Shown: one piece after another, positions 1,125 to 26,711 of the stretch | How positions within the stretch are numbered: the stretch's first letter is position 1 | Layout: each line of letters starts with the position of its first letter | Source of the DNA: Pseudacidobacterium ailaaui | Lineage (GTDB): Bacteria > Acidobacteriota > Terriglobia > Terriglobales > Acidobacteriaceae | Assembly: GCF_000688455.1 (NCBI RefSeq) | Contig: NZ_JIAL01000001.1 | Location: 1,705,001-1,769,000, forward strand | Direction of reading: 5' to 3' | Length of the DNA stretch: 64,000 nucleotides | The notes under the pieces: model-generated | What the model was told of the DNA's origin: nothing | Databases searched by the model: none | The model's input: only the letters and a program-made list of their open reading frames with translations | Program-made: the position numbers and the translations under genes

Positions 1125-1277
1125 GAATCCTATTGTTGCCAGCCAGGGCCTTGCCTGCAAGTGGCGACGGAAAGCGAGGGTCCCTGTACCGTGCGTTTCT
1201 CTGCTGCAGCAGACGGCCTGAATCATGTATCGTTTTGGGTGTGGAAGTGAAAGCGGTTTCATTCAAACGAGGGACAC

Positions 1278-3602
1278 ATGGACAGGCGTGATTTTATGAA
1301 AGCCAGCGGAGCGTTGCTGGCAGGGGCTGCAGTAGCCAGGCATGGGTTTGCGCAGCATGAGAAGCAAACACACGGAGGTCGTTTGGTGCTGGCCATCAAC
1401 CGTGGCTGGCGCTATCATCCGAAATTTGTCGAGGGCGGCCATGAGGCGCAATTTGACGATTCAGGCTTTGATCGGGTGGTCGTGCCGCATACCAATGTCC
1501 GGCTGCCCTGGCATGGTTTCGATGACAAAGAATATGAATTTGTCTCCTTATATCGGAGAAAGTTCCGTCTGCCCGCGGAGGCGCGGGGAAAGCATGTGTT
1601 TGTGGATTTTGAGGGGGTGATGACCGCCTCGACGGTCTGGATCAATGGTCAGCGTCTGGGCGAATACAAAGGGGGATACACTCCATTTTCCTTTGAACTG
1701 ACGCAGCATGTGGATTTTGATGGAGAAAATGTACTGGCCGTGGATGTGGATTCGACTGAGCGGCCCGATATTCCTCCTTTTGGATACCGGATCGATTATT
1801 TGACTTTTGGCGGAATCTATCGCGAGGTCGCGCTGCGCATCGTGCCCTCAACATTCATCGAGAACATTTTTGCCCAACCCAAAGACGTTCTGAGCGGAAG
1901 CCCTTCCCTGGATGTGCTGTGCTATGTGCAGTCCCTGGAGCCGGAGAGCGGGGCGCTCCAGCTCGAAGCCCTGCTGCTCGATGGCGATCACACCATCGCA
2001 AAGGCGACGCAGACGGTCTCTGCGCCAGGGGCCGTCGGCGAATCTGTGCCTTATACGGTTACATTTGCAAAGCTGAAGGGCATCGAGCTATGGGACCTCA
2101 ACCATCCAAAGCTTTACACCGTCAAGATACGGATGCTGCGCAACGGCCAGATCATCGATGAAGATTCGCGGCGGACCGGCTTCCGCCATGCCGAATTTAC
2201 AGACCATGGATTTGAGCTGAACGGCAGGGTCATCAAGCTGCGCGGCCTGGACCGGCACCAGACGTTTCCCTTTGTGGGGCAGGCCATGCCGGCACGGGTG
2301 CAGCGGCGCGATGCATATATTCTGCGCAAACAATTGCATTGCAATATTGTGCGCACTTCGCACTATCCGCAATCGCGGCATTTTCTGGATGCCTGCGATG
2401 AGTACGGGCTGCTGGTGCTTGAAGAGATTCCCGGCTGGCAGCATATTGGCGATCAGGCGTGGCAGGACCTTTCGGTGGACAATGTAAGCCGCATGATCCG
2501 ACGCGACTGGAACCACCCTTCGATTGTGTTGTGGGGGGTGCGCATCAACGAGTCGCGCGACAATCACGACTTTTATACGCGCACCAACGCCATGGCGCAT
2601 CGGCTCGATCCGACGCGGCAGACTGGCGGTATCCGCTATTTCCAGGAGTCGGAATTTCTTGAAGATGTGTTTACGATGAATGATTTTGGATGGCCGCTGA
2701 AACCGCCGAACCATCCGCGCTATCTGAACACGGAGTTTGTGGGGCACACTTATCCGGTCAAGACGGTCGATGACGACGAGCGGCACCGGGAGCACACCAT
2801 CCGCCATGCGCGCGTGCATGATCAGCTGGCCTCCAACCCACAGTATGCGGGCGGCATTGGCTGGTGCGCCTTTGATTACAATACGCACGATGACTTTGGA
2901 GCAGGCGACCGCATCTGTTACCACGGCGTCATGGACATCTTCCGCGAGCCGAAACCGGCGGCAGGCTTTTACAAATCGCAGTGTGATCCGGAAGAGGAAA
3001 TTGTGCTGGAGCCGGCCTTTCATTGGGCCTCCAGCGATGAGGCCACGCGCTTCAGCATCGCCATGGTCTGCTCCAACTGTGACCATCTGAAGTGGTATGT
3101 CCGAAACGGAGACGAATGGAAGCTGGCGGCGGAGACCGACCCTGACCACGAACAATTTCCGCACCTGAAGTATGCGCCCTTCAGCCTGGACCTGACCAAG
3201 GTGCGGCATCCCTGGGGGGACCTGCGCATTGATGGATATCTGAAGGGCAAGCAGGTCATCTCCCGGACTTTTTCAGGCCGTGGCGTGGACCGCAGATTTT
3301 CTCTGCGTGCCGATGATCAGGAACTGCTGGCCGATGGAGCCGATACAACGCGCGTTGTGATGCGGGTGACAGATGAATTTGATGCCATCCGTCCCTATGC
3401 CAACGATGCGATTGTGCTGACGCTGGAGGGCCCGGCCGAGCTCATCGGAGACAATCCGTTTGCTTTGTTTGGCGGGCAGGGTGCAGTGTGGGTCCGGGCC
3501 AAAGAAGAAGCAGGCACGGTACGGCTGACGGCCCGGCATCCAAGGCTGGGGACGCAGACGGTGGAAATTGCCGTGCGTCCCGCGGCCCAGGAGCAGGCCT
3601 GA
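1278..3602 (+). CDS. Secreted glycoside hydrolase family 2 (beta-galactosidase/beta-glucuronidase type)
   Basis: 774 residues with a twin-arginine leader (RRDFMKASG followed by a hydrophobic alanine-rich stretch), so export folded through Tat is likely. Domain order is GH2 sugar-binding (about 35-180), immunoglobulin-like (about 190-300), TIM barrel (about 305-590) and a C-terminal beta domain. The barrel shows the family signature RTSHYPQSRHFLDACDEYG at about 360, the acid/base Glu in GVRINES (about residue 425) and a nucleophile candidate Glu in NTEFVGH (about 486). GH2 enzymes hydrolyse terminal beta-linked galactose, glucuronate, mannose or related sugars; the exact substrate is not decidable here. 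It starts a plus-strand glycan block with the GT2 and methyltransferase genes and a second GH2 gene. Confidence 0.92.
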   Translation: MDRRDFMKASGALLAGAAVARHGFAQHEKQTHGGRLVLAINRGWRYHPKFVEGGHEAQFDDSGFDRVVVPHTNVRLPWHGFDDKEYEFVSLYRRKFRLPAEARGKHVFVDFEGVMTASTVWINGQRLGEYKGGYTPFSFELTQHVDFDGENVLAVDVDSTERPDIPPFGYRIDYLTFGGIYREVALRIVPSTFIENIFAQPKDVLSGSPSLDVLCYVQSLEPESGALQLEALLLDGDHTIAKATQTVSAPGAVGESVPYTVTFAKLKGIELWDLNHPKLYTVKIRMLRNGQIIDEDSRRTGFRHAEFTDHGFELNGRVIKLRGLDRHQTFPFVGQAMPARVQRRDAYILRKQLHCNIVRTSHYPQSRHFLDACDEYGLLVLEEIPGWQHIGDQAWQDLSVDNVSRMIRRDWNHPSIVLWGVRINESRDNHDFYTRTNAMAHRLDPTRQTGGIRYFQESEFLEDVFTMNDFGWPLKPPNHPRYLNTEFVGHTYPVKTVDDDERHREHTIRHARVHDQLASNPQYAGGIGWCAFDYNTHDDFGAGDRICYHGVMDIFREPKPAAGFYKSQCDPEEEIVLEPAFHWASSDEATRFSIAMVCSNCDHLKWYVRNGDEWKLAAETDPDHEQFPHLKYAPFSLDLTKVRHPWGDLRIDGYLKGKQVISRTFSGRGVDRRFSLRADDQELLADGADTTRVVMRVTDEFDAIRPYANDAIVLTLEGPAELIGDNPFALFGGQGAVWVRAKEEAGTVRLTARHPRLGTQTVEIAVRPAAQEQA

Positions 3603-19512: not shown

Positions 19513-20058
19513 ATGGCTGCCTATCTTCTGGTTTTATTTGCGATTGTGAGCCGTTATGTGGTGGCGTCGCACCATGACTGGCTGAACTTTACTGCTATTG
19601 GCGGGTCGCTGCTGTTTTTCGGCGCGCGACGTCCGCTGGGACAGATGGTCCTTCCCCTGGCTGCTTTGATGGTGACCGACTATTTCATGACCGTCTCCTA
19701 TTACAGCTATCCCTTCCATGCACAGGACTATCTGGTGACCTGGGCGTGGTATGCGGCGGTGATGGTCCTGGGACGCCTGCTGCTGCACCACCGGGTCTCC
19801 GCCGGAAGGGTAGCGGCGGCGGTGGTCCTTTCCTCGACGACCTTTTTTCTGGCCAGCAACTTTGCGGCATGGTCCATGCTGCAAGGGCTGTACCCGCGCA
19901 GCTTTGGCGGTCTGATGACGGCCTATGGCGCTGGACTGCCTTTCTACCGGAATGATCTGCTTTCGACCGCTTTGGTGACCGGACTCGCTTTTGGCCTGCC
20001 CGCGCTGGCGCACCGCTGGTCCGCCCTCCACTCGGCCGAAGGGCGGCACGTGGCCTGA
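19513..20058 (+). CDS. DUF6580-family integral membrane protein
   Basis: 181 residues with five to six predicted membrane segments. The pattern NFTAIGGSLLFFGARR, PLAALMVTDYFM, ASNFAAWSML and YGAGLPFYRNDLLSTAL matches the DUF6580 family of uncharacterised inner-membrane proteins, distantly similar to energy-coupling S components. Start ATG at 19513 follows GCAGGGG. It stands alone on the plus strand, divergent from hrcA; its function is unknown. Confidence 0.82.
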   Translation: MAAYLLVLFAIVSRYVVASHHDWLNFTAIGGSLLFFGARRPLGQMVLPLAALMVTDYFMTVSYYSYPFHAQDYLVTWAWYAAVMVLGRLLLHHRVSAGRVAAAVVLSSTTFFLASNFAAWSMLQGLYPRSFGGLMTAYGAGLPFYRNDLLSTALVTGLAFGLPALAHRWSALHSAEGRHVA

Positions 20059-20140
20059 GCGGTCTTCGTCTTTGCCCGGCGCAGCGTAGCTTTGCGAATA
20101 TTTCCCGTGCCGCGTGTTTGTTGTACCTTCAGGCTTAGAG

Positions 20141-20437
20141 ATGGAGAGTATGGTCAGCTTTACCGTTCGCATGCGTTTTGCAGAAAAAGACCGCGAGAAG
20201 ATCAGTGAGGTCCTTAAGGAGCTGGCCCCTGCTTCCCGCCAGGAGCCGGGCTGCATCACATACATTCCACACTGGGTGGACGGCGAGGCCTGCACAGTGC
20301 TTATCTACGAACAGTACAAGGACGAGGCCGCTTTGGAGGCGCACCGTGCGACCCCTCACTTCCAGCAATATGCAATTGGCGGCCTGTACCAGATGATGCT
20401 GGAGCGCTCGGTAGAAAACCTGGTTGCGGTCATCTGA
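20141..20437 (+). CDS. Antibiotic biosynthesis monooxygenase (ABM)/quinol monooxygenase-like protein
   Basis: 98 residues, a single ferredoxin-like ABM domain: the first strand SFTVRMRFAEKDREK, EPGCITYIPHWV, LIYEQYKDEAALEAHRATPHF (the H-x-x-T/S-P-H-F pattern typical of YgiN-like proteins) and a final ERSVENL. Members act as small cofactor-independent monooxygenases or heme-degrading enzymes; this one looks closest to the YgiN group. Start could be ATG 20141 or ATG 20150, both in frame. Confidence 0.88.
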   Translation: MESMVSFTVRMRFAEKDREKISEVLKELAPASRQEPGCITYIPHWVDGEACTVLIYEQYKDEAALEAHRATPHFQQYAIGGLYQMMLERSVENLVAVI

Positions 20438-20470
20438 TGCCGCACATGACCCGGGGAGACCAGACCGCGG

Positions 20471-21100
20471 TCATTCAAAGGGCGTTGCCCCGGATACCAC
20501 AGCAGCCTGGCCGGAACGCTGGACCCAGTGCCCATTGTGTTTTTCCAGATAAATCCATTCTCCCTGACTGCACAGATTTCCGCACCAGTCGAGCTGGTAG
20601 ACCAGGGCCGCGCGCTGCCTGGAATCAAAGTAAACATCACTAAAAAATGTGATTCCTGGGTAACCGGCATACTTTTGTTGCAGCGCGGAGCTGGCTGCGG
20701 CCGTGCCCAGTGTCTGCTTCATCTCGCTGATCTCGGCGGCAGAAAGCAGTGTGTAAGGCCGGTCGAGATGGAAGTGCCGGCCGAGCGTGAGCCTCTGATA
20801 TTTGCGGGCATGGAAGTCCGCCAGCGCCTCTTGGAATGGCCGGGGATTGTCAGCCGGGGGCCTGAGCGCCGCATCCGGAGACAGCTTCGGGTTCATATCA
20901 TCAATGTTGATTGTGGTGTCCGCGATGGCCCAGCGCTGATTGTGGTCCGGGCCCAAATTGGCCAGAACGGCGCCGGGCATCAGAAGCGAGTAGATGGCAT
21001 AGACGTCCTGCTGGCGGGAGGCGTGGAGTGGGACCTGGCCCCGAAGTGGCCCCGCGAACAGGACAAGCAAGACCGCAATGGCCGGACGGAGAGTCATCAT
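20471..21100 (-). CDS. Secreted protein of unknown function
   Basis: 209 residues with a signal peptide (MMTLRPAIAVLLVLFAGPLRG). The mature protein has DVYAIYSLLMPGA, RWAIADTTINID, PYTLLSAAEISEMKQ, a tryptophan/cysteine cluster (QLDWCGNLCSQGEWIYLEKH) and GYPGITFFSDVYFD; the last parts resemble periplasmic proteins that end with an observed-value beta sheet, but no known family was recognised. It lies 80 bases downstream of the hypothetical gene at 21181-21630 on the same strand and may share its transcript. Confidence 0.78.
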   Translation of the reverse strand: MMTLRPAIAVLLVLFAGPLRGQVPLHASRQQDVYAIYSLLMPGAVLANLGPDHNQRWAIADTTINIDDMNPKLSPDAALRPPADNPRPFQEALADFHARKYQRLTLGRHFHLDRPYTLLSAAEISEMKQTLGTAAASSALQQKYAGYPGITFFSDVYFDSRQRAALVYQLDWCGNLCSQGEWIYLEKHNGHWVQRSGQAAVVSGATPFE

Positions 21101-21180
21101 CCTATGATGCTGCAGGCCCGCTTCAGGGCAAATGCAGCGAGCACGTATTTTTCAAGCAACCCAATGCAGACCGCATCGTC

Positions 21181-21630
21181 TCAATGCGCGTCGGCGGTGT
21201 CCCAGGGCGTGGCCCCACGCGGAATGGGTTTCGTGTCGCGTCCTTTGACGCGATCGTAAAAGTAGTCCGTACTGGTGGTGCCAATCGACTCGTTGTAGTA
21301 GCTGGGTGCTCCAATGGCCTCCTTCAGCTCTTCGCTGAAACGGTGCAGGGCCTTCAGATGGTCGGCCGTGGCGGTGATTTCCAGACGGCTGGTTTTGAGA
21401 AACTTCTGGAAGCCGCGATCGAGCAGGTGTGCAATTTCGCCTCCCAGCACGATGCCCGGACCTTCCACAATGGAAGCGATATTGCCGTTGCGCGCGAGGA
21501 TGGCGGCGCAGCCATTTTTCTCCACCCGGTATTGTCCTGCGACCCCGGACGCCTCACGGACATCAAACTGGAAGCTGCGAAGGTTCGCGAGGGCCTCGTC
21601 GAAAGTGGTCTGTTTTGTTTTTCTTGGCAT
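21181..21630 (-). CDS. Conserved-looking cytoplasmic protein of unknown function
   Basis: 149 residues from ATG 21630. No signal or membrane segment. A mixed alpha/beta composition with FDEALANLRSFQFDV, GQYRVEKNGCAAILARNG, IVEGPGIVLGGEIAHLLDRG and a C-terminal tail YFYDRVKGRDTKPIPRG. A TTG at 21648 is also in frame but has no added support. The codon use and lack of stops fit a real gene, but no family is recognised. It is divergent from cysM (98 bases between starts). Confidence 0.72.
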   Translation of the reverse strand: MPRKTKQTTFDEALANLRSFQFDVREASGVAGQYRVEKNGCAAILARNGNIASIVEGPGIVLGGEIAHLLDRGFQKFLKTSRLEITATADHLKALHRFSEELKEAIGAPSYYNESIGTTSTDYFYDRVKGRDTKPIPRGATPWDTADAH

Positions 21631-21728
21631 AGTGTCAGGACGCGGCAAAGACCAGACTTGTTAAACTGGATGCAGGCTGCCGCTGTTTTCACTCTCGCAC
21701 ACTTTTGCGGCGCGCTGCAACGTATTGA

Positions 21729-22667
21729 ATGATGGCAACCATGACACAATCGCTGGGGGCGACGCTGCTGGATCGCATCGGGAACACGCCCTTGCTGCGT
21801 TTGGAGCGCATTACCGCGCATCTGTCCGGGGTCCAGGTCCTGGGCAAGGCGGAGTGGGCCAATCCGGGCGGCTCTGTGAAGGACCGCGCGGCGTCTTCCA
21901 TTGTGACGGCGGCCATCAGGCAGGGAAGATTAGGCCAAGGCCAGCACCTGCTGGACGCCACGAGCGGGAACACGGGCATCGCCTATGCCATGTTGGGCGC
22001 GGCGATGGGCTTTCCGGTGACGCTCTGCGTGCCCGCGAATGTGTCCCCGGAACGCAAGCGCATTCTGAAGGCCTATGGTGCAAACGTGGTCTGGACCGAT
22101 CCTGGCGACGGCTCTGACGGTGCCATTCGCAAGGCGCGGGAGATGGCGGCCTCGGAGCCGGAAAAGTATTACTATGCCGACCAGTATGGCAATGACGCCA
22201 ACTGGCAGGCGCACTATCGCACGACGGCCATTGAAATCTGGGAGCAGACGGCCGGACAGCTCACGCATTTTGTGGCCGGGTTGGGCACCAGCGGCACATT
22301 TGTCGGAACCACGCGGCGTCTGAAAGAATTGAATCCAGCAGTACAGTGCATCTCCATGCAGCCCGATTCGCCGTTTCATGGCCTGGAAGGGCTGAAGCAC
22401 ATGGCGACGGCGATTGTCCCGAAGATTTACGACGCATCGCTGGCCGACCGTGACCTGGAAATGCCGACCGAGACCGCTTACCGCATGGCCAAGCGGCTGG
22501 CGCGGACCGAGGGCCTGCTGGTGGGCGTATCGGCAGCCGGAGCGGTGGCTGCAGCGCTGCAAATTGCAGAAGAAGAGGCGGCCCGAGGCCGCGAGGCGAT
22601 GATCGTGACCATCCTGCCGGATTCGGCAGACAAGTATCTCAGCGAACGCTTCTGGGAGGAAGAGTAA
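21729..22667 (+). CDS. cysM: Cysteine synthase (CysM/CysK family, PLP enzyme)
   Basis: 312 residues. GNTPLLRLERI, the PLP lysine in NPGGSVKDRAA (about residue 44), the cofactor/substrate loop TSGNTGIAYAM, and the glycine-rich phosphate loop GLGTSGTFVGTTR are all present. The stretch YYADQYGNDANWQAHY is typical of O-phosphoserine or CysO-dependent CysM-type enzymes. It sits directly upstream of a JAMM protease, a MoaD/ThiS-like sulfur carrier and a MoeZ-like activating enzyme, the same gene set that makes cysteine from a protein thiocarboxylate in mycobacteria. Inferred role: sulfhydrylation of an activated serine with carrier-bound sulfur. Start could also be the adjacent ATG 21732. Confidence 0.9.
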   Translation: MMATMTQSLGATLLDRIGNTPLLRLERITAHLSGVQVLGKAEWANPGGSVKDRAASSIVTAAIRQGRLGQGQHLLDATSGNTGIAYAMLGAAMGFPVTLCVPANVSPERKRILKAYGANVVWTDPGDGSDGAIRKAREMAASEPEKYYYADQYGNDANWQAHYRTTAIEIWEQTAGQLTHFVAGLGTSGTFVGTTRRLKELNPAVQCISMQPDSPFHGLEGLKHMATAIVPKIYDASLADRDLEMPTETAYRMAKRLARTEGLLVGVSAAGAVAAALQIAEEEAARGREAMIVTILPDSADKYLSERFWEEE

Positions 22668-22672
22668 AAGCA

Positions 22673-23125
22673 ATGCTGAAGCTCAGCGGACCAATCTACA
22701 ACGCACTGCGGAAACATGGTGAAGAAACCTATCCGCATGAGTGTTGCGGTGTGCTGCTGGGCCGCTCCCATGAGGGCGTCAATGAGGTGGTGGAGGCCGT
22801 CCGGGCCGGCAATACCCGCACCGATTCGGCGCACAACCGCTACAGCATCGCCCCGCAGGAGCTGGTGCGCATCCAGCGGCAGGGGCGCGAGCGCGGTCTG
22901 GACATCGTAGGCTTCTACCACTCGCACCCGGACCATCCGGCGCAGTGGTCAGCGACAGACTTTGCGGAAGCCCACTGGCTCGGCTGCTCCTATGTGATTA
23001 CTGCAGTCGAGAAAGGCATTGCAAAACAGACCAACTCGTTCCTGTTAACGGGAACGACCGAGGAAAACAAGTCCTTTGAGGACGAGGTCATTCAGGTAGA
23101 GGAACTGGTAGCGGAACGATGTTGA
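22673..23125 (+). CDS. mec: JAMM/Mov34 (M67) metalloprotease, Mec-like
   Basis: 150 residues, one JAMM domain. The conserved Glu in YPHECCGVLLG, HSH in GFYHSHPDHP and the SATD that follow form the full E / HxH-x7-S-x2-D zinc signature. In Mycobacterium the equivalent Mec releases cysteine from the CysO-cysteine adduct; in other bacteria (QbsD) a JAMM enzyme trims residues after the Gly-Gly of the sulfur carrier. Here the carrier gene follows within 90 bases and encodes one extra residue after Gly-Gly, so either or both roles are plausible. The start is five bases after the cysM stop. Confidence 0.92.
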   Translation: MLKLSGPIYNALRKHGEETYPHECCGVLLGRSHEGVNEVVEAVRAGNTRTDSAHNRYSIAPQELVRIQRQGRERGLDIVGFYHSHPDHPAQWSATDFAEAHWLGCSYVITAVEKGIAKQTNSFLLTGTTEENKSFEDEVIQVEELVAERC

Positions 23126-23215
23126 CCGCCGGGTCACCCCGCTCCCTGCGCAGAGGCGTCCGTGCCTGCTGTGTCTGCTTCCATGAAATGGACCGAAGAA
23201 AGGATTTGTACTCTC

Positions 23216-23491
23216 ATGAAGATTTTCATACCTACCCCATTGCGCGCCTATGTGAACAAGCAGGATGCTGTGCAGGTGGATGCAAAGACCGTTGGTGAGG
23301 CGCTGCAGGTGCTTACTGAGCAGCATCCCGACCTGAAGAAGCACCTCTACTCGGACGAAGGCAAACTGCGGGCCTTTGTCAACGTGTATCTGAATGACGA
23401 AGATGTGCGGTATCTGCCCGAGAAAGAAGCCACCAGCGTAAAGGAAGAAGATTCGCTTTCGATCATCCCTTCCATCGCAGGCGGGTACTAG
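23216..23491 (+). CDS. cysO: MoaD/ThiS-family sulfur carrier protein (CysO-like)
   Basis: 91 residues from ATG 23216 with AAAGGA eleven bases upstream. The ubiquitin-like beta-grasp fold is indicated by KIFIPTPLRAYV, VGEALQVLTEQHPDL, RAFVNVYLNDEDVRYL and VKEEDSLSIIPSIAGG. The protein ends Gly-Gly-Tyr rather than Gly-Gly, so the Tyr must be removed before the C-terminus can be adenylated and thiocarboxylated. The neighbouring JAMM protease is the obvious candidate for this trimming. Partner genes cysM, mec and moeZ flank it. Confidence 0.92.
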   Translation: MKIFIPTPLRAYVNKQDAVQVDAKTVGEALQVLTEQHPDLKKHLYSDEGKLRAFVNVYLNDEDVRYLPEKEATSVKEEDSLSIIPSIAGGY

Positions 23492-23538
23492 GCCCTCCAG
23501 GCAATCACGCTTCGGCGTATCATTTTGGGAGAAATTTC

Positions 23539-24723
23539 ATGCCAACATGCACAGAAGAAACGGTGGCCCAGCCACAGCTTACAAATGAAGAAATCGCCCG
23601 CTATTCGCGGCACCTGATTCTGCCCGAAGTCGGCCTGGAAGGGCAGAAAAAGCTGAAGGCGGCAAAGGTCCTCTGCGTCGGTACCGGCGGACTCGGCGCG
23701 CCGCTTGCCTACTATCTTGCCGCAGCCGGCATCGGGACGCTTGGTCTGGTGGACTTTGACAAAGTGGATGAGAGCAATCTTCAGCGCCAGATCATCCACA
23801 GCACCAAAGATGTGGGCCGCCCCAAGATTGACTCGGCGGCAGAAAAGCTCCAGGCGCTGAATCCGTATCTGAAGATTGTGAAGCATGAGACGATGCTCAC
23901 CAGCGCCAACGCACTTGAGATTATCAAGGACTACGACATCGTTGCCGATGGCACCGACAACTTCCCCACGCGCTACCTGGTCAATGACGCCTGCGTGCTC
24001 AGCGGCAAACCCAATGCGTACGCCTCGATCTTCCGCTTTGAAGGGCAGGCCAGTGTCTTTGCCACCGAAGAGGGCCCGTGCTACCGCTGCCTTTATCCTG
24101 AGCCGCCACCACCAGGACTTGTTCCCTCCTGCGCAGAGGGCGGTGTGCTCGGTATTCTGCCCGGGCTGCTTGGGGTGATTCAGGCAACGGAGGTCATCAA
24201 GCTGGTCCTCGGCAAGGGTGAGCCACTCATTGGCCGCCTGCTGCTGGTCGATGCACTGGGAATGAAGTTCCGCGAACTGAAGCTGCGCAAAAATCCAGAC
24301 TGCCCAGTCTGCGGAACGCATCCGACTGTGAAAAAATTAATTGATTACCAGCAATTCTGCGGGATTGTTCCCGAAGAAGAAGTGAAGGCGGCACCTGTGC
24401 AAAACGGCATTCCACAAATTACACCCAAAGAATTGAAGCAGCGTCTCGACGCGGGAGAGAACATCTTTGTCCTCGACGTGCGTGAGCCGCATGAATACCA
24501 GATTGTGAACATCGGCGCCTCCCTGATTCCGTTGGGCGAGCTACCGAACCGCATCAGTGAACTTGACCCCAACCGCGAGATCGTTGTCCATTGCAAGTCG
24601 GGTGGACGCAGCCAGAAGGCGGCCGAGTTCCTGCAGAAGAGCGGATTTAAAAACGTGTCCAACCTGGCCGGCGGCATCACTGCGTGGGCCAATGATGTAG
24701 ATCCCAAGCTGCCAAAATATTAA
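23539..24723 (+). CDS. moeZ: MoeZ-like molybdopterin-synthase/sulfur-carrier adenylyltransferase with rhodanese domain
   Basis: 394 residues. Residues ~15-260 form a ThiF/MoeB E1-like domain: VLCVGTGGLGAPLAYYLAAAG (ATP loop), DFDKVDESNLQRQ, DGTDNFPTRYLVND, and zinc ligands CYRCLYP and CPVCG. Residues ~285-390 are a rhodanese with the active-site cysteine in VHCKSGGRS. Such proteins adenylate the carrier's Gly-Gly end and then pass it persulfide sulfur, giving the thiocarboxylate. The start follows GGGAGA at a good spacing, 47 bases after the carrier gene. The last four bases overlap tail-to-tail with mrdA. Confidence 0.93.
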   Translation: MPTCTEETVAQPQLTNEEIARYSRHLILPEVGLEGQKKLKAAKVLCVGTGGLGAPLAYYLAAAGIGTLGLVDFDKVDESNLQRQIIHSTKDVGRPKIDSAAEKLQALNPYLKIVKHETMLTSANALEIIKDYDIVADGTDNFPTRYLVNDACVLSGKPNAYASIFRFEGQASVFATEEGPCYRCLYPEPPPPGLVPSCAEGGVLGILPGLLGVIQATEVIKLVLGKGEPLIGRLLLVDALGMKFRELKLRKNPDCPVCGTHPTVKKLIDYQQFCGIVPEEEVKAAPVQNGIPQITPKELKQRLDAGENIFVLDVREPHEYQIVNIGASLIPLGELPNRISELDPNREIVVHCKSGGRSQKAAEFLQKSGFKNVSNLAGGITAWANDVDPKLPKY

Positions 24724-26711
24724 GGCAGTTTTGCATCGGCCAGTGTGGGCGGCACATTGAGATAGAAGTGTCCGCCCCACAGGGCATCGTTCTTCTCTTT
24801 GCCGGTCAGGACTGGTTTTCCTCCGTTCAGCTCCCGCGCCACGGGGTCGTTCCAGATGGCCCCTACGTCTACTTTGGCCGGAGTTTTCGCCACCAGGTTA
24901 TGGTTCAGCCGCCTCTGCTTGTTCACATAGGCCTCGATGACGCGGGCCGCCAGACGGCCAGCGAGGCGGCCGTGCTCTCCTGCTTCAAAGAGTGTGCAGA
25001 CGACAATGTCAGGATTGCGTCGCGGGGTAAAGCCGACAAACCACGCGTTGTCGTGAACGGAGTGCGAATGTCCCAGCCGCGCGGCCAGGGCATTGCTCAT
25101 CGTCTGCGCGCTGCCGGTCTTGCCGGCAAAATCAATTCCTTCCAGGTGTGCGCTGGGGTCAGTTCCGGCGGGACTCATGACCTCGACCATGGCATCGGTG
25201 ATGGTCTCCCAGCTTTGCGGATCGAGGGGGACAACTTTGTCCCCGGAGCCGGGGTAGGTGTCCAGAATGGCCTTCCGGTAATCGGGAGGCAGCTCATCAG
25301 GAAACACGATATGGGGACGTTTCAGGACGCCGCCGGAGGCAATGCCTCCGATGGCGCGGGCCATTTGAATTGGCGTAGCGGCCACGGCGCCCTGGCCGAT
25401 GCCCACCGAGATGGTCTCTCCGGCAAACCATTTCTGGTGAAAGTTGCGCATCTTCCACTCTTCTGAAGGCATGGTGCCGGCCGCTTCATTGGGAAGGTCC
25501 ACGCCGGTCTTTTCTCCGAGGCCGAAGGCATGTGCCCATTTTGCGATCTTCTCGATGCCCAGCTTTTCTGCCAGCGTGTAGAAGAAGACGTCGCAGGACT
25601 GGTAAATCCCCTTGGTGATATTCACTTCGCCGTGGCCGCCATGGACCCAGCACTTAAAGTAGCGTCCGTAGAAGACCGCGCCGCCGCTGCAATGGACATT
25701 GAGGTCCTGCGCCACACCTTCTTCAAGACCAGCGGCAGCCATGATGATCTTGAAGGTGGAACCGGGAGCAAGCTGGGCCTGAATGGCCTTGTTCAGCAGA
25801 GGATGCTCAGGGTCTGTGATGAGTTTGTTCCATTCCTCGCGTCCGATGCGGACAGCAAAGTCGTTGGGATCAAAAGCGGGCCTGCTGACCAGGGCCAGGA
25901 TTTCGCCGGTGTGCGGGTCGATGGCGATGATGGAGCCGTTATGGCCCTCCAGGGCGTTTTCTGCTGCGCGCTGAATATCAATGTCAATCGTAAGCCGGAG
26001 GCTTTTGCCGGGGACGGCATGTTCGGTGCCCAGCTTCCCGACCTCACGTCCGTGGCTGTCCACGATCACGTCGCGCGATCCGTCCTGTCCGCGAAGAATT
26101 GCGTCATAGGACTGCTCGACACCGGACTTGCCGACCACGTCGCCCGGCTCGTAATAAGCGTAACGTGGGTCGTTCAGCATCTCCTCGCTGACCTCACCCA
26201 CATAGCCAATCAGGTGTGCGGCAAATCCGTCTTTGGGGTAGAGGCGGCGCTGCTCCTCGACTGTTTCCAGTTCGGGGAACTCATCGCGGTGGGCCTCAAT
26301 GAACTCCTGCTCATCCGGCGTAATGTCCTGCTTGAGGGGCAGCGGCTGATACTTGGGCGCCGTCTGGTATTTCTTCAGAATGGCCTCAATCTGGTCTACG
26401 GTCATGTGGAGGCCACGGGCGATGCGCGGAAGGTCTGACATGTAGTCATGTCCCTGCTCGCGCACCAGGAAGCAGGAGACTGAGGGATAGTTGTCCACCA
26501 GAAGGCGGCCCTCGCGGTCAAAGATCTTTCCGCGCGGAGCCAGAATGGGGACTTTGCGGATACGGTTGGCCTCGGCCAGAGCACGGTAATTTTCCGCCCC
26601 CACCACCTGTAATCGCCAAAGCCCGAAAATGAGGACCAGAAAAATGCCCACAATCGCGTACTGGACGACAGTGAGTTTGAGAGATGGGAGCTTCTCTTCC
26701 CGGTTGAGCAT
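24720..26711 (-). CDS. mrdA: Penicillin-binding protein 2 (peptidoglycan transpeptidase)
   Basis: 663 residues. One N-terminal membrane anchor ([19 protein letters not shown]), PBP dimerisation domain (about 45-240, with [19 protein letters not shown]) and transpeptidase domain with SxxK in APGSTFK (Ser about 318), SCD in YQSCDVFFY and KTGSAQ near 531. This matches elongation-specific PBP2, which cross-links side-wall peptidoglycan in rod cells. rodA and mreCD, often neighbours, are not in the window. The ATG at 26711 is preferred over an in-frame TTG at 26720. Confidence 0.96.

Follow-up and report, generated by a model that had tools for sequence, protein, structure and literature searches.

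A Gly-Gly-Tyr sulfur carrier beside a JAMM protease in a CysO-type cysteine cluster of Pseudacidobacterium ailaaui

Can a sulfur carrier whose chain runs past its Gly-Gly serve as translated, or must it first be cut, and by which protease? A cluster of four genes in Pseudacidobacterium ailaaui (Acidobacteriota) raises this question. In the window, the whole stretch of 64,000 nucleotides that we analyzed (contig NZ_JIAL01000001.1, positions 1,705,001 to 1,769,000 of the forward strand), positions 21729-24723 hold in series on the plus strand cysM, a JAMM protease gene, a carrier gene ending in Gly-Gly-Tyr, and an E1-rhodanese gene, with gaps of 5, 90, and 47 nucleotides. Sulfur carriers are usually regarded as ready once translated. 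On the basis of sequence comparisons, we consider it likely that this carrier is translated as an inactive precursor and that one JAMM matures all carriers of the genome and also releases cysteine. Trimming of the window carrier by the JAMM is well supported by these comparisons; a role for the JAMM on all carriers of the genome is moderately supported, and its release of cysteine is inferred from homology.

The cluster and the carriers of the genome

21729..22667, plus strand: CysM-like pyridoxal phosphate-dependent cysteine synthase, 312 amino acids (PF00291, 4.7e-69)
22673..23125, plus strand: JAMM/M67 metalloprotease, 150 amino acids (PF14464, 1.7e-24)
23216..23491, plus strand: ThiS/MoaD/CysO-type sulfur carrier with a Gly-Gly-Tyr end, 91 amino acids (PF02597, 3.5e-11)
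23480..23488, plus strand: Gly-Gly, the predicted mature end, and the Tyr cap (from sequence and the tails of relatives)
23539..24723, plus strand: MoeB/MoeZ-like E1 adenylyltransferase with a C-terminal rhodanese domain, 394 amino acids (PF00899, 4.9e-83; PF00581, 8.1e-20)

A first-pass annotation of this DNA had described cysM, a JAMM protease, a carrier, and a MoeZ-like E1-rhodanese in one plus-strand cluster, and the open reading frames and Pfam matches bore this out. Its reading of the carrier end was also correct: the C-terminus is SIIPSIAGGY, with codons GGC GGG TAC TAG at 23480-23491. The best solved chains for the carrier, 4n6e_B and 3dwg_C, both terminate at the Gly-Gly aligned to residues 89-90. 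The second of these, which we take to be CysO, aligns over residues 3-90 and ends in a free Gly-Gly, whereas the window carrier adds the Tyr. The JAMM protein carries the complete motif E-HSH-x7-S-x2-D, and the corresponding E-HxH-x7-SxxD was intact in 175 of 176 distinct JAMM relatives, the remaining one being incomplete within the short stretch available; its best solved chain is 2kcq. The CysM-like protein scored 349 bits against TIGR01138 cysM, below the cut-off of 394, and its best solved chain is 2bht, presumably CysM of the Escherichia coli type. The E1-rhodanese exceeded the cut-offs of PRK08762 MoeB (485 versus 449) and PRK05690 MoeB (308 versus 266) and fell below that of PRK07878 MoeZ (515 versus 647). 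We conclude that these genes form a CysO cysteine module whose carrier is capped.

The genome is a single contig of 3.69 Mb rated 100% complete, and the cluster JAMM is its only Prok-JAB match. Four ThiS-family carriers were found in it, all four with residues beyond Gly-Gly. Besides the Gly-Gly-Tyr carrier, they are ThiS, in which GGG is followed by LPTGSLP; MoaD, which MoaE continues in the same frame (a MoaD-MoaE fusion); and a carrier that overlaps a threonine synthase (ThrC) gene (TIGR00260, 285 bits; cut-off, 167) and has a 26-residue tail with seven Cys. That all four are blocked points to one protease as their common on-switch. The genome has two ThiF-family genes, the window E1-rhodanese and an E1-like gene of 341 amino acids (L007, positions 1216-2241, minus strand) that has no rhodanese match and adjoins none of the four carriers. 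The ThrC-overlapping carrier (L003, positions 1420-1773, minus strand, around 2668299 of genome contig C1) has a counterpart in L093, likewise with Gly-Gly and then a Cys-rich tail; the tail end, RCCSYCGQExCxCY, is common to two genera.

Capping and JAMM across Acidobacteriota

The first-pass annotation had held that the carrier needs trimming, had linked this to the JAMM, and had suggested, as a test, a survey of acidobacterial carriers for residues past Gly-Gly against presence of the JAMM gene. We surveyed 149 Acidobacteriota genomes drawn evenly from the phylum. A match to the window carrier was present in 76, a Prok-JAB match of some strength in 119, and one above the cut-off in 92. From 118 match rows, 117 carriers were read, the ThrC-linked carrier of P. 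ailaaui itself being read separately. A strong JAMM was a match with E of 1e-15 or better, weaker JAB matches being scored as absent. A JAMM counted as adjacent when the stretch read contained a tblastn match to the window JAMM above 45 bits, so that distant JAMMs may escape. Carrier ends were located through Ala/Ser-Gly-Gly, and the 4 of 117 carriers lacking such a site were scored as unclear; two (L059 and L109) were split at an earlier Gly-Gly and run on regardless. After its Ser-Gly-Gly, the MoaD-like carrier of L109 enters a 753-residue frame containing AHVDHGKTTL, which we take to be a translational-GTPase-like motif. Of the matches listed in a further search, we went through 30 loci and 60 regions.

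Carriers adjacent to a JAMM, carriers in genomes without a strong JAMM, and carriers in JAMM genomes away from it spanned 21, 9, and 16 families, respectively. Beside a JAMM, 52 of 53 carriers were blocked: a short tail follows Gly-Gly in 22, and in 30 the frame continues into the E1. The sole free end was that of a ThrC-linked carrier sharing its locus with another carrier. Where no strong JAMM match was present, 19 of 20 carriers ended in a free Gly-Gly (Fisher test, 2.5e-15, a value uncorrected for kinship and carrier type). This comparison supports both a link between cap and JAMM and the need for trimming. In JAMM genomes, the 44 carriers without an adjacent JAMM comprised 20 with tails, 16 free, 4 running on, and 4 unclear. 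ThrC-linked carriers had tails in 12/12 cases in the window's family, Acidobacteriaceae (13/13 including the one of P. ailaaui), in 1/6 in other JAMM genomes, and in 0/4 without a strong JAMM. At 49 of the 53 carriers adjacent to a JAMM, cysM was present as well; the gene set is therefore conserved, and the cluster is not a product of chance.

The company of cysM also bears on a reading in which the carrier is conjugated to proteins in the manner of ubiquitin, with the JAMM as deconjugase, as in archaeal SAMP1 and desampylase. The carrier narrowly passes the NCBIfam cut-off for SAMP1 (62.0 versus 60), and the JAMM scores 86 bits against desampylase. The latter score lies under the desampylase cut-off of 130, so the two cut-offs are not jointly reached, and cysM beside nearly all such carriers fits the making of cysteine; we regard tagging as highly improbable. 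The NCBIfam cut-off would label the carrier at 23216-23491 SAMP1, which is likely a misannotation, and naming by cut-off alone would thus mislabel it.

Does the same hold for carriers that have no part in cysteine synthesis? ThiS and JAMM matches sat at separate places in the listed genomes. We read 76 ThiS genes. In the window's family, 40 of 42 were blocked; other JAMM genomes had 10 of 19 blocked, and genomes lacking a strong JAMM match had 0 of 15. The contrast outside the window's family alone gave 0.0007 (Fisher test), and in family f19 ThiS was blocked in 3/4 JAMM genomes and in 0/2 others. Among the blocked ThiS, those of two JAMM genomes (L380 and L386) run in frame after GGG into sequence that is presumably ThiG-like, a fusion that would also need cutting. 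In L318, the ThiS frame extends into a protein of some 300 residues whose Cys pairs resemble those of a zinc ribbon. Among 80 searched genomes of the window's family, a JAMM match was present in 78, and MoaD-MoaE matches spanned both domains in 68 of the 77 with a match; all 30 of those read were a single frame.

Several of our observations weigh against the proposal that a JAMM matures capped carriers. Carriers in genomes without a JAMM were mostly of other types (ThrC-linked or MoaD-like), so the contrast of 52/53 with 19/20 is partly one of type. Within the window's family, 2 of 42 ThiS were uncapped. Outside it, ThiS was free in 9 of 19 JAMM genomes; together with the 16 free carriers among the 44, this indicates that a JAMM does not force capping. 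One JAMM-linked relative (L290) has no cap at all, and a Nonomuraea cluster pairs a JAMM motif with a free Gly-Gly carrier. Capped carriers without a JAMM, which the first-pass annotation had named as the contrary case, were mostly absent (1/20), the exceptions being two drafts: L036 (650 contigs), whose carrier is blocked by fusion without a strong JAMM match, and G186 (350 contigs), which has no JAMM match and still a fused MoaD-MoaE.

The Nonomuraea cluster would also fit a JAMM that acts only in cysteine release, Mec-like on carrier-Cys, while another protease takes off the Tyr; Mec frees cysteine from CysO-Cys according to the parts of PMC3227635 on this step. Under that reading, capping of ThiS should not follow JAMM presence, as ThiS needs no amino-acid release, and yet it does: without a strong JAMM match, only 1 of 20 carriers and 0 of 15 ThiS were blocked. 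We find release as the sole function very unlikely.

Length and cysteine content of the tails

Is the Tyr of the window carrier an accident of one sequence? We pooled 174 distinct CysO-type carriers, 146 standalone and 28 running on. Some loci of the pool came from a search that used the JAMM as query, so the survey of 117 carriers and the ThiS comparison are the fairer tests of the link to JAMM. The running-on carriers meet the E1 in frame in 27 of 28 cases, L190 meeting undetermined bases before its E1 match. In 145 of the 146 standalone carriers, 1 to 32 residues follow Gly-Gly, and the Tyr is thus no single-sequence oddity. The body through Ala-Gly-Gly is conserved and the remainder hypervariable; relatives have many different caps, Tyr being one of them, and many fuse the carrier to the E1.

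The mean tail length was 7.8 residues, compared to about 30 for stops met by chance, and one-residue tails made up 21%, compared to 3% by chance. Tails so far below chance length and yet almost never absent suggest, as far as sequence can tell, that a short cap is selected for and not merely tolerated. A neutral origin, in which stops drift downstream at no cost because a JAMM is already there, could draw on the hypervariability of the tails and on the many carrier-E1 fusions, of which tails may be relics. It could also draw on the one-residue caps: 14 of their 30 codons differ from a stop codon by a single change, compared to 18 of 61 sense codons generally. Under drift, however, tails should run to about 30 residues and zero-length ends should be frequent, whereas such ends were seen in 1 of 146; nor does drift account for 16% Cys in tails in one frame only. 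We judge it unlikely. Some caps, including the TAC of the window carrier, may have arisen from a mutated stop; as a general account this origin was rejected, since it fails for longer tails and for Cys pairs.

The Cys content of the tails is high. In CysO-type carriers (for example L144, L161, L189, and L268, within L018-L301), 178 of 1134 tail residues were Cys (15.7%), compared to 50/2200 in the other two frames of the same DNA. Controls gave 273/8181 downstream, 2/583 in fused linkers, and 0/12410 in carrier bodies, and the last ten residues of other proteins at these loci held 0.2% (CysM), 0% (E1), and 1.4% (JAMM) Cys. When each cluster of related carriers was represented by one resampled tail, the Cys content was 10.8-21.7% (53 clusters, 32 with a Cys tail). 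Cys is the commonest first tail residue (33/145), and a cap beginning with it would equal a gene-encoded form of the natural carrier-Cys intermediate; Cys-Cys-Arg ends 16 of 145 tails. Cys tails occurred with 67 of 110 spacers of at least 40 nucleotides, compared to 6 of 22 shorter ones, which may be recently split fusions.

Codon usage in the tails is also skewed. Tails use 130 TGT and 48 TGC, compared to 237 and 1860 in the operon genes; the lean toward T was weaker for other pyrimidine-ending codons (191 T and 352 C in tails, 13430 T and 46550 C in genes). TGTTGY in tails falls in the Cys frame in 63 of 63 cases, related tails not being independent. ThiS tails of the window's family have 9 Cys in 125 residues. 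ThrC-linked tails have 19 in 88 (10 distinct tails), with 13 TGC and 6 TGT and thus no TGT preference, so a role at the protein level is as possible as one at the codon level.

One reading that would join these observations for the window's family is that carriers are born inactive with caps as the control point, that one JAMM activates the cysteine, thiamine, molybdenum cofactor, and threonine-synthase-linked routes, and that tandem-TGT tails act as a cysteine sensor. In the sensor part, tandem TGT codons before the stop would tie completion of the carrier, or translation of the downstream E1, to the supply of charged Cys-tRNA. We offer this combined reading only tentatively, as one that is probably wrong in some part. 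The window's one-residue cap has no TGT codons, so the sensor part would concern relatives only. Attenuation at cysteine codons has been reported for mycobacteria, as relayed in part of a citing paper. An RNA attenuator behind the Cys tails was considered and rejected: spacers gave no fold signal (mean z of -0.63 for 28 Cys-Cys tails and -0.58 for 71 others), and Rfam found four tRNAs only over ten loci and no match in window positions 20000-26000.

Proposed pathway and known systems

How might the four proteins work together? By comparison with relatives, the JAMM would first cleave after Gly-Gly, and the Tyr would be lost. From homology to MoeZ, the E1 would then adenylate the freed Gly, and the rhodanese domain would give sulfur to form the thiocarboxylate. 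CysM, from its homology and that of the carrier to CysM-CysO, would couple the thiocarboxylate with an activated serine, possibly O-phosphoserine, to yield carrier-Cys, from which the same JAMM, as a Mec homolog, would free cysteine and regenerate the carrier. The first and last steps cut almost the same bond, Gly-Gly plus one residue, so that a single active site can serve both. The JAMM probably also frees ThiS, MoaD from MoaD-MoaE, and the ThrC-adjoining carrier, in which case it would gate all thiocarboxylate sulfur transfer in the genome. If the family does cap or fuse nearly all its carriers and rely on one JAMM, then thiamine, molybdenum cofactor, and carrier-based cysteine synthesis would all pass through that protease, by a logic close to ubiquitin precursor processing.

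The choice of substrate is less clear-cut. A genome search for serine acetyltransferase (cysE) gave a best score of 44 bits against a cut-off of 211, which fits O-phosphoserine as the CysM substrate. Three points tell against the pathway as drawn. A second cysteine-synthase gene (41% identity), adjoining a gene for a Cys/Met-metabolism pyridoxal phosphate enzyme, passes the cysK cut-off (377 versus 351), and thus the cluster need not be the sole cysteine route; the same gene leaves the missing cysE without explanation. Finally, the Arg with which mycobacterial CysM presumably binds O-phosphoserine was not evident at the aligned place in the window CysM.

How much of this has precedent? Among the papers listed in literature searches on such carriers, with subscription papers mostly outside their scope, only PMC1779556 dealt with this cluster in Acidobacteria. 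In the parts of that paper on the class (Iyer et al. 2006), class 4c comprises ThiS/MoaD, E1-rhodanese, JAB, and cysteine synthase, with Acidobacteria tabulated. An Actinobacteria-only arrangement is thereby ruled out: the class includes other phyla, and there are plasmid and replicon examples. The first-pass annotation was right that the arrangement exists outside Actinobacteria, and its novelty fell to the 2006 table. Plasmid pACIB of Aliarcobacter cibarius (L362; Campylobacterota) encodes a cysteine synthase, an M67 protease, and a Gly-Gly-Ile carrier, and in a Burkholderia replicon a JAMM-like motif lies upstream of a Gly-Gly-Arg-Ser carrier; three of the 26 plasmid records that matched were examined. 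In the vicinity of the pACIB cluster are a gene for a sulfate transporter and an encapsulin whose cargo is cysteine desulfurase.

The two-job JAMM fared similarly; its trimming half is supported by our comparison, and as an idea it is not new. In Wolinella HcyS-HcyD, one JAMM, HcyD, removes the C-terminal residue and releases homocysteine. That system has MetY as its partner and homocysteine as product, whereas the window partner is CysM-like (PF00291) and not of the MetY type. The gene set outside Actinobacteria and JAMM-dependent capped carriers are already known; the comparison of capping with JAMM is new.

Among known systems, the mycobacterial CysM-CysO-Mec-MoeZ pathway, set out in parts of PMC3227635, has by family the same four activities as the window cluster. 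An actinobacterial subtype adds ClpS and a helical protein, according to part of PMC1779556; no ClpS match was found among the five flanking genes scanned in the window, two of which had no Pfam match at all. Class 4c has the gene set of the window cluster. The parts of PMC1779556 on it do not discuss short caps past Gly-Gly; the paper does suggest that JAB may liberate ThiS or MoaD from fusions with other proteins. Fusions of ubiquitin-like proteins to E1 are common to archaea and bacteria, according to part of PMC2948915. QbsE-QbsD and PtmS2-PtmS1, like the window cluster, combine residues past Gly-Gly with a clustered JAMM; they serve secondary metabolites, whereas the window cluster holds cysM. 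Parts of PMC6006322 describe carriers capped with MV or C and a clustered JAMM, PtmS3 having a one-residue Cys cap, and report that a Streptomyces JAMM mutant loses the product, the capped carriers being proposed sulfur donors. In Deinococcus radiodurans, the JAMM (DRJAMM) cuts MoaD-MoaE and frees MoaD (PMC8832034, in part), and a MoaD-MoaE fusion occurs in the window genome too. For DRJAMM, a single fusion has been reported as substrate, whereas in P. ailaaui up to four carriers would fall to one JAMM.

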